DNA from: Comamonadaceae bacterium
GTDB taxonomy: Bacteria > Pseudomonadota > Gammaproteobacteria > Burkholderiales > Burkholderiaceae_C
Length of the DNA stretch: 64,000 bases
NCBI GenBank assembly: GCA_947450675.1
Contig: CANFWI010000005.1
Location: 1 to 64,000, forward strand
Reading direction: 5' to 3'
The translations under genes and the position numbers were made by a program. Shown here in pieces: positions 25,748 to 31,982 of the stretch (positions within the stretch are counted from its first letter, which is position 1; every line of letters begins with the position of its first letter). The notes beneath the pieces are model-generated. The model made no database searches. It had not been told where the DNA came from and was given only the letters and a program-made list of their open reading frames with translations.

Positions 25748-27589
25748 TCATATCGGCTTGGCCAATTCCGAAGTCGATGTCGAGGCCAACGGACGGATGC
25801 TGCCGGGCACCACACGGGCGCCCCATTGGCGCACCATGTCTTGCACAAAAGGGTCGTTTTCAATGACCTCTTCCGCTCGCCGTTGCCGCTCTGTCTGAGC
25901 GGCTGTGTTGCGGCGCGCAGGCGTGTCGGCCACAGGGCCAACTTCAACCATCAACCGCGTCATTACCGGCGCAACGTCTGCATCTGGCAAGGCATGCAAA
26001 CTTTGAATGGCTTGAAGCAACTTGTCGCAAGCACCGGCGTGGTTGAGCGACTGGCGCTCAACCCGCAAGGTCCAAACGCCATCGTCCTGCGACTGCAACT
26101 CAGACTGCAGCGCCAGCTCACGCACCAGCGCAGAGATCAGTTCTGCGGCAATCAGTGCTTGCACCAGCGCAGCCCAATGGTCGCCGAGCGGCGTGACCCG
26201 CAAAGGGATGACTGCGTCAACGCTGATGCTGGGTGCGCCGGGCGCCGGGGTCGAGACGGCCTTTGCCGGTTGGGTTGGCTCGGCCAGGGTGGTCACCGGC
26301 ACAACAGGTGAAGCAACAGGCGCGGGAACGGGCTCGCTTACAGCGCGCGCCACTGGCGGCGTGATCGGATTGGTCGGCGCTACAGCCGTCTTCGGCGAAG
26401 GCGACACAAGTGCCGCAGGACGCGGCTCAGGCTGCGGCTTTTTTGGGGGCTCGACGGCACCCCTCGACTCAGCGGCACCCGTCACGCGCTTGAAAGGCAG
26501 CAGTCGCAACAACACCATGGTCAGCGCCGCATATTCATCCGGGGCCAACCCCAGCTCGCCCCTGCCGTGCAAACACAGGCTGTAGAGCAACTGGGTTTCA
26601 TCAGCCGGCAGCAACTGCGCCAAACGCGCCGTTTCAGACACATCAGGATCGCTCGCATCGTCACCCGCACCGATGCCAGGCACCGCCTGCAACACCGCCA
26701 TGCGTTGCAACACGCTGGTCATTTCTTCCAGCGTAGAGGCGGCGCTCAAGCCATTCAGACGCAACACCTCGGACATCTCGACAATGCTTTTACCGTCGCC
26801 ACGCGCCAGCGCATCAAGCAGTTGATACACATAGCTGCGGTCAACGCTGCCGAGCATTTGCCGCACACCGGCTTCGACCAGCGCGCCAGAGCCAAAGGCA
26901 ATCGCCTGGTCGGTCAACGACAGCGCATCGCGCATGGAGCCGCGTGCGGCGCGGGCCAGCAAACGCAAGGCCTGCGGCTCAGCCGCGACGTCTTCGGCGG
27001 CCAGCACCTGAACCAAATGCTCCAGAATGGTTTCAGGCGCCATCGGCCTCAAATTGAATTGCAGACAGCGCGACAGCACCGTGGCGGGCACTTTTTGGGG
27101 ATCGGTCGTGGCCAGCACGAACTTCAGGTAAGCCGGTGGCTCTTCCAGCGTCTTCAACATGGCATTGAAAGCCGTGTTGGTGAGCATGTGAACCTCGTCA
27201 ATCATGAACACTTTAAAGCGGCCCACAACGGGCTTGTAAACCGCCTGCTCTAGCAGCTGGGCAATCTCGTCAACACCGCGATTCGAGGCGGCATCCAGCT
27301 CGGTGTAATCAACAAAACGGCCGCTGTCGATGTCGGTACACGCCTCGCAAACACCACAAGGTGTTGCCGTGATGTCGCCCGTGCCGTCCGGGCCGGTGCA
27401 GTTCAGCGACTTGGCCAAAATCCGCGACACCGTGGTCTTGCCCACACCGCGCGTTCCGGTGAACAGGTACGCATGGTGCAGTCGCTGCGTGCCCAAGGCA
27501 TTGCTCAAAGCCTGCACCACATGCGACTGCCCGACCATTTCCGAAAAATTCTTGGGGCGATATTTGCGAGCAAGGACGAGATAGGACAT
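25748..27589 (-). CDS. dnaX: DNA polymerase III subunit tau (and, by frameshift, gamma)
   Basis: Clamp-loader ATPase that also ties polymerase cores to the helicase. 613 residues. The N-terminus holds QSHVVQAL, Walker A GTRGVGKTT, four zinc-binding Cys (C in SLNCTG, then CGVCEAC), a DEVHM Walker B box and the SRCLQF arginine finger. Domain III ends near residue 375. A Pro/Ala-rich linker (about 380-470) leads to the tau-specific C-terminal part. At residues 383-384 (Lys-Lys) the codons form a slippery heptamer with a -1-frame stop just beyond, predicting a gamma product of about 387 residues (separate entry). First gene of the dnaX-ybaB-recR run and divergent from ffs. Confidence 0.96.
   Translation of the reverse strand: MSYLVLARKYRPKNFSEMVGQSHVVQALSNALGTQRLHHAYLFTGTRGVGKTTVSRILAKSLNCTGPDGTGDITATPCGVCEACTDIDSGRFVDYTELDAASNRGVDEIAQLLEQAVYKPVVGRFKVFMIDEVHMLTNTAFNAMLKTLEEPPAYLKFVLATTDPQKVPATVLSRCLQFNLRPMAPETILEHLVQVLAAEDVAAEPQALRLLARAARGSMRDALSLTDQAIAFGSGALVEAGVRQMLGSVDRSYVYQLLDALARGDGKSIVEMSEVLRLNGLSAASTLEEMTSVLQRMAVLQAVPGIGAGDDASDPDVSETARLAQLLPADETQLLYSLCLHGRGELGLAPDEYAALTMVLLRLLPFKRVTGAAESRGAVEPPKKPQPEPRPAALVSPSPKTAVAPTNPITPPVARAVSEPVPAPVASPVVPVTTLAEPTQPAKAVSTPAPGAPSISVDAVIPLRVTPLGDHWAALVQALIAAELISALVRELALQSELQSQDDGVWTLRVERQSLNHAGACDKLLQAIQSLHALPDADVAPVMTRLMVEVGPVADTPARRNTAAQTERQRRAEEVIENDPFVQDMVRQWGARVVPGSIRPLASTSTSELAKPI
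26412..26459 (-). promoter_or_regulatory. dnaX: Predicted programmed -1 ribosomal frameshift site in dnaX
   Basis: On the coding strand the codons CCA AAA AAG form the heptamer A AAA AAG (26444 to 26438) in the correct phase. In the -1 frame the next codons are GCC GCA GCC TGA, with the stop at 26429-26427. A 7-bp inverted repeat follows (arms GCCGCAG at 26438-26432 and CTGCGGC at 26418-26412); its 5' arm starts at the last base of the heptamer, and a shorter 5-bp alternative starts further on. An AGGGG Shine-Dalgarno-like stretch lies about 15 nt upstream. These are the same elements, with the same heptamer, as E. coli dnaX. The function is inferred from the pattern. Confidence 0.8.
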
Positions 27590-31880: not shown

Positions 31881-31982
31881 GAAATTGCTTTGTGTTGAGG
31901 TGGTTTATTTGAATTGCCGTGAACTACTCGGTGAAGTATTGACCTGCTGCAAAGATTAAAAAAGTCCCACTCTTCATCTTCA

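Follow-up and report, generated by a model that had tools for sequence, protein, structure and literature searches.

A candidate -1 frameshift cassette conserved in Polaromonas dnaX and its probable relation to an A9 run in other Comamonadaceae

Programmed -1 ribosomal frameshifting in dnaX is documented in E. coli and other enterics (PMC3711429, PMC3290774). The dnaX of Neisseria, another betaproteobacterium (in the old sense) with A AAA AAG, is cited as a -1 frameshift entry of Recode-2 (PMC3711429). In Thermus thermophilus, gamma is made by polymerase slippage on a run of nine A residues (A9) in dnaX (PMC1088944, PMC5009743). Caulobacter obtains this short subunit differently, by cleaving tau proteolytically (PMC5009743); this involves no decoding event and could operate in addition in the species studied here. 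In one view, gamma may be lacking in most non-enteric bacteria (PMC3290774). A search of 5.39 million papers found none combining Polaromonas, dnaX and frameshift. Among the papers listed by broader searches, none, judged by title and the first lines of its abstract, treats dnaX decoding in Comamonadaceae or names this family for A9 slippage in dnaX.

We analysed a 64,000-nt stretch of a Comamonadaceae genome (the window; contig CANFWI010000005.1), presumably from the GTDB genus Polaromonas. Its dnaX gene, which is followed in the window by ybaB and then recR, encodes a product matching the Pfam families DNA_pol3_delta2, DNAX_ATPase_lid, DNA_pol3_gamma3 and DNA_pol3_tau_5 and the gamma/tau family TIGR02397 of NCBIfam. 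Codons 383-384 are AAA AAG and the preceding codon is CCA, which places the heptamer A AAA AAG in frameshift phase. After a slip, the -1 frame would read Lys Lys Ala Ala Ala UGA. A first-pass annotation, made from the sequence, had proposed an in-phase heptamer, a -1 stop three codons further and a product of about 387 residues ending in Ala-Ala-Ala; all three agree with the conceptual translation (Table 1). It had also placed the cassette just past domain III, where gamma should end. This agrees with the PF12169 match to domain III, which reaches residue 365 and thus locates the site just behind this domain. Since the match to tau domain V starts only at residue 470, the predicted gamma would retain the clamp-loader part without the polymerase-binding part (domain role taken from the Pfam title).

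Table 1. Features of the dnaX locus, in coordinates of the window
Feature	Position	Strand	Basis
dnaX, full-length tau, 613 aa	25748..27589	minus	ORF, Pfam and TIGR02397
Predicted gamma coding stretch, 387 residues (frame 0 up to the slippery site, then Ala-Ala-Ala-UGA in the -1 frame)	26427..27589	minus	translation
Shine-Dalgarno-like AGGGG, 15 nt 5' of the heptamer	26460..26464	minus	sequence; SD rule; duplex energy
Conserved box with the consensus YGCCGYCGAGCC, 3' of the SD-like element and 5' of the heptamer	26448..26459	minus	GCCG conservation, codon fixation
Slippery heptamer A AAA AAG, in phase	26438..26444 (5' to 3' 26444-26438)	minus	sequence; 65/65 distinct genes
-1 frame stop UGA, three codons past the heptamer	26427..26429	minus	sequence; relatives with a near -1 stop
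Small hairpin GCCGCG-UCC-UGCGGC right after UGA, possible 3' stimulator (26426-26421 with 26417-26412)	26412..26426	minus	pairing in relatives
7-bp stem GCCGCAG/CUGCGGC of the first-pass annotation (26438-26432 with 26418-26412)	26412..26438	minus	unsupported by relatives

The motif AAAAAAG occurs 20 times in the window over both strands. Three of these copies are in phase in open stretches spanning 150 or more codons, and the dnaX heptamer is the only one of the three with a -1 stop within five codons. The other two in-phase copies, at 31958 (plus strand) and 47394 (minus strand), are followed by -1 stops 8 and 15 codons on. The longest A run at the cassette is A6. An Rfam scan with E values up to 5 returned no dnaX element at this site and a single chance-level match elsewhere.

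The locus resembles E. coli dnaX in carrying an in-phase A AAA AAG past the clamp-loader domains, a near -1 UGA and an upstream Shine-Dalgarno (SD)-like element. In the E. coli K-12 sequence, which we folded, the main stem starts right after the UGA, as does the window hairpin, and in both systems gamma is shorter than tau. The two also differ. The SD-like element is 15 nt from the heptamer in the window and 10 nt in E. coli, the -1 stop lies three codons on in 50 of the 60 distinct Polaromonas genes and one codon on in E. coli, and the hairpin, where it stands behind the stop, is 11 nt from the heptamer in Polaromonas instead of 5. The linker from domain III to the site is about 50 codons shorter in the window, and the fixed box further sets the Polaromonas cassettes apart.

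We consider it very probable, from these sequence features and those described below, that the cassette is a -1 programmed ribosomal frameshift site. Ribosomes would translate dnaX up to the codons AAA-AAG, where the SD-like element, paired to 16S rRNA upstream, would favour a slip, perhaps together with the small hairpin behind the -1 stop, and tRNA-Lys would re-pair one base back, on AAA AAA. Slipped ribosomes would add three alanines and stop at UGA, producing a gamma-like clamp-loader subunit of 387 residues with an estimated mass of about 41 kDa, while unslipped ribosomes would continue to tau (613). In Polaromonas and one other genus, this arrangement would have replaced an earlier A9 run in nearly this position, itself predicted to yield the same two products through RNA polymerase slippage. 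We infer the slipping itself, its efficiency, the role of each stimulator and the direction of the swap; what is observed is the sequence anatomy, its conservation, the frame-specific stops and the distribution on the gene tree.

The cassette was found in 52 of the 54 dnaX loci read from a Polaromonas genus sample of 61 genomes, seven of which fall outside this count. One of the two misses (L190, genome G003) carries a dnaX only 71% identical in a genome rated 6% contaminated and may be a stray contig; the other (L191, genome G007) is masked or broken. Two further genomes of the genus, outside the 54 loci, also carry the cassette, in one of them (G021) on a dnaX fragment judged by eye; the six remaining unread genomes gave no or only partial dnaX matches. 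Among 80 named loci, all 18 with a Polaromonas title have the cassette. Removal of duplicates reduced 90 cassette loci to 65 distinct genes, 60 from Polaromonas and 5 from a second genus (g30). The weak paralogue matches L002-L004 were dropped. The heptamer is invariant in these 65 genes, and a -1 stop occurs within five codons of it in all 60 Polaromonas genes, compared with 0.209 of control positions in the same linkers. The core claim of the first-pass annotation thus held under the comparison of relatives that it had itself proposed, both the heptamer and the -1 stop being kept at the nucleotide level across the genus.

A pattern scan of 399 family genomes gave 11 matches, ten of them in dnaX and one (L277) in a stretch without dnaX; it missed Polaromonas genome G382, whose dnaX has a cassette with a slightly different box. 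We rejected a mobile cassette, since a search for distant similarity among 72,556 plasmid records brought up six short matches, at E 0.6.

The upstream AGGGG reported by the first-pass annotation is present, just outside the interval 26412..26459 that it had assigned to the cassette. With a published rule that takes spacings of 6-17 nt (PMC4066793), an SD-like sequence was found at 15-16 nt in 53 of 59 genes and at 0.135 of control positions. This spacing is inside the range of the rule and slightly exceeds the 9-14 nt reported for -1 stimulation by an SD-like element (PMC5009743). The calculated duplex with the 3' end of 16S rRNA is -10.1 kcal/mol for the window and -7.4 kcal/mol for the fetched E. 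coli site, and all 65 distinct cassettes reach -6 kcal/mol or lower, as do 9% of controls. Between this element and the heptamer, the box YGCCGYCGAGCC is nearly as constant as the heptamer itself and common to both cassette genera, with GCCG at -14..-11 in 65/65 distinct cassettes. Its GCC codon is fixed in 59/59 genes (codon-fixation counts leave out one of the 60 Polaromonas genes, which has an incomplete N-terminus), whereas the dominant-codon share has a median of 0.64 over 25 conserved Ala columns elsewhere, only one of which is so fixed. In one g30 gene (L274), two A AAA AAG heptamers stand close together and only the second lies behind a box.

Downstream, the picture is less uniform. 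The 7-bp stem that the first-pass annotation had drawn from the heptamer can be formed in the window, yet relatives do not support it: in ten sequences only 77% of its cells are paired, a value reached by 473 of 500 shuffles. The small hairpin right after the UGA is better supported, with 95% of cells paired (13/500 shuffles as high) and changes on both sides at two of its six pairs (68/500 shuffles as high). The ten sequences are the window and nine relatives hand-picked after the hairpin had been noticed, so that the 95% figure leans in its favour; one of them (L104) shares just 93% identity with the window in the N-terminal part, and sliding the hairpin by three columns still leaves 75% pairing. 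With this hairpin the spacer becomes 11 nt, longer than the usual 5-8 nt, and not shorter as the first-pass annotation had stated for its stem.

Across the genus, no folding-energy signal was detected downstream of the heptamer (mean z of -0.14 to -0.21, control windows -0.16). Simple hairpins scoring at least 6 occur more often in cassettes (48%) than in control windows (18%) or shuffles (20%). This score is a rough guide, since the working E. coli stem, with its bulges, reaches only 5.0 (window, 5.5). The best hairpin begins directly behind the -1 stop in 13 of 60 genes, eight of which are the window and its close relatives; in the others it starts anywhere from 10 bases before to 15 after the stop, and its position shifts between subclades. 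The hairpin at 26426-26412 is likely, as far as pairing in relatives can indicate, to be a 3' stimulator in the window's own subclade, and with much less certainty in the whole genus.

These data bear on a variant of the preferred explanation, overlapping with it in confidence, in which the frameshift would be driven mainly by the SD-like element and the box YGCCGYCGAGCC, the hairpin being minor. Both upstream elements vary about as little as the heptamer does, across the two genera and at nearly fixed spacing, while downstream energy is ordinary and hairpins move about. Against it stand the excess of hairpins over controls and shuffles and the fact that YGCCGYCGAGCC may, from the comparison of sequences, derive in part from an Ala-Ala-Glu peptide found in front of A9 in many relatives. 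We hold this variant to be possible, with less than even confidence.

A second alternative is that transcriptional slippage at the A6 or A7 run makes the short product, as in Thermus. Relatives do have A9 at the same site, and five of the 65 cassettes have a run of 7 A. However, the runs are short, the other 60 having 6 A. Polymerase slippage both gains and loses bases and would favour stops in both frames, whereas only -1 stops are enriched in the cassettes: a +1 stop within five codons is present in 5/60 Polaromonas genes (0.175 of control positions), and stops in both shifted frames within eight codons in 12/60. In addition, the fixed G after the run and the upstream SD-like element would be without role. 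We judge slippage at the cassette itself very improbable. Compared with Thermus dnaX as described in the literature, Polaromonas would make the same two products without an A9 run and without enrichment of +1 stops.

The strongest sign of selection at the nucleotide level is the codon before AAA AAG, which specifies eight amino acids in the 60 Polaromonas genes (P24 G13 A10 E5 L4 V2 S1 T1) and always ends in A; elsewhere in these genes, third-position A is used in 3-12% of codons for those amino acids, and in 48% for Glu. The AAA and AAG codons of the heptamer are each fixed in 59/59 genes, and none of eight other conserved Lys columns is equally fixed. An inert cassette, with tau as sole product and the motif kept for the linker peptide, could appeal to the fair constancy of the peptide Ala-(Ala/Val)-Glu-Pro-x-Lys-Lys, but it is hardly credible in view of the fixed synonymous positions (GCC, AAA and AAG), the constant third base in front of Lys-Lys where the residue varies, and the -1 stop kept in every Polaromonas gene.

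The frameshift reading gains its interest from the rest of the family. In a family sample, for which 107 of 114 matched genomes were read, counting that of the window, the 106 loci besides that of the window comprise 59 with A9 or longer, one with A8, 44 with neither motif and two with the cassette, one from a further Polaromonas (L034) and one from g30 (L164). The first-pass annotation had correctly guessed Comamonadaceae and had regarded an E. coli-like cassette in a betaproteobacterium as notable; in itself this is not new, given the Neisseria entry cited in PMC3711429, and the surprise lies instead in the A9 run of 59/106 loci. In the named set, A9 was found in 16 of 17 records titled Rhodoferax, the cassette being present in one of the 17, in six Variovorax and three Hydrogenophaga, and in one each of Curvibacter, Ramlibacter, Caenimonas and Paracidovorax. 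In 97 of 111 distinct A9 genes, a stop lies within eight codons in the frame reached by gaining one A as well as in that reached by losing one; of 8623 control positions taken from these genes, a fraction of 0.044 show this. The A9 loci lie in the dnaX linker (L035-L063, L112-L187, L211-L271), with both-frame stops in most. These neighbouring genera thus share with Thermus, as described in the cited papers, the same gene, an A9 near the same place and both-frame stops, and A9 genes of other Comamonadaceae are predicted from sequence to make gamma by transcriptional slippage. From the 44 loci with neither motif, no conclusion follows on alternative routes to gamma, for instance proteolysis.

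Outside the family, an in-phase A AAA AAG occurs in 8 of the 108 genomes of the class that were read (112 matched), four of the eight inside runs of nine or ten A. Scattered dnaX copies with a near -1 stop, some within A9 or A10, were seen in distant families of the class (L304, L314, L324, L344, L356).

A FastTree built from 249 DnaX N-terminal parts recovers Polaromonas as a single clade with a support of 99, nested among A9 rows; many inner branches of this tree are weak (L189 and L191 were left out of the trees). This nested position suggests that slippage has probably been replaced by ribosomal frameshifting. The second genus, g30, has genomes of 2.1-2.6 Mb and carries the cassette in 5/5 (L164, L272, L274, L275, L276). 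FastTree places it apart from Polaromonas, and the cassette state then needs two changes. One origin and two are both compatible with the trees: a tree constrained to keep g30 and Polaromonas together scored 39.5 log units above the unconstrained quick search and is not rejected (p-AU 0.93), and a tree with three added protein parts does not separate the two arrangements. Transfer of a dnaX piece from Polaromonas to g30 was rejected, the N- and C-terminal parts of four g30 genes being no closer to Polaromonas than to A9 genera. On this evidence from gene sequences, the most economical reading puts A9 first, with the cassette replacing it once or twice; the swap would thus have run from A9 to cassette.

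The presence of two lysine tRNAs has been suggested as a possible reason why Thermus uses slippage and not frameshifting (PMC5009743). In the window genome (94% complete), exact patterns gave one match to tRNA-Lys(UUU), confirmed by ARAGORN, and no match to tRNA-Lys(CUU). Such patterns, applied to draft genomes, can miss genes, and the matches in the rest of the family are by pattern alone. Among good family genomes, a CUU-like match is present in 39 of the 41 that lack both motifs and in 39 of the 56 with A9; good Polaromonas genomes have it in 13 of 31 cases, the last proportion differing from that of the neither-motif and A9 genomes with Fisher p values of 6e-7 and 0.02, respectively, uncorrected for kinship. 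ARAGORN confirms 12 of the 13, and in the whole genus sample it calls a gene for 13 of 14 CUU-like matches (the exception is in G048). In g30, exact patterns gave no CUU match in any of the five genomes and a UUU match in all five.

Loss of tRNA-Lys(CUU) as a strict requirement was rejected, since thirteen Polaromonas cassette carriers, 12 of them among the 31 good genomes, have an ARAGORN-called gene for it. As a tendency, the link between the cassette and absence of this tRNA is suggestive only, kinship being uncorrected; the counts are consistent with an adverse effect of a second lysine tRNA on the frameshift, without proving it. In the carriers, this tRNA should lower slipping on AAG, and it counts against the frameshift reading together with the SD spacing outside 9-14 nt, the ordinary folding energy, the shifting hairpins and the negative Rfam scan at this site. 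We regard as rather unlikely the most inclusive reading, in which a slippage site was swapped for a frameshift site at nearly the same codons in connection with loss of tRNA-Lys(CUU), YGCCGYCGAGCC acting as a third, undescribed stimulator.

Some further observations concern these tRNAs. Two Polaromonas genomes (L402, L420) have a second UUU gene beside the first, where CUU carriers hold the CUU gene, and L373 has a match that resembles the CUU gene with a UUU anticodon, at which ARAGORN calls no gene; a conversion from CUU to UUU is possible in all three. Among good A9 genomes, the CUU match is lacking in 8 of 15 where the run is followed by G and in 9 of 41 where it is followed by C.

Taken together, the family context is of more interest than the window cassette itself. 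The cassettes suggest that gamma is worth keeping in Comamonadaceae, which can be compared with the opinion that gamma may be lacking in the majority of non-enteric bacteria (PMC3290774). The family also offers natural replicates for the two-lysine-tRNA idea put forward for Thermus slippage. Of the two decoding routes to gamma, one is known from E. coli and the other from the distant Thermus. Their joint prediction within related genera, close to a shared position in the gene, opens the replacement of one by the other to test. One bacterial family may thus, as far as its gene sequences suggest, have swapped one route to the same short protein for another.
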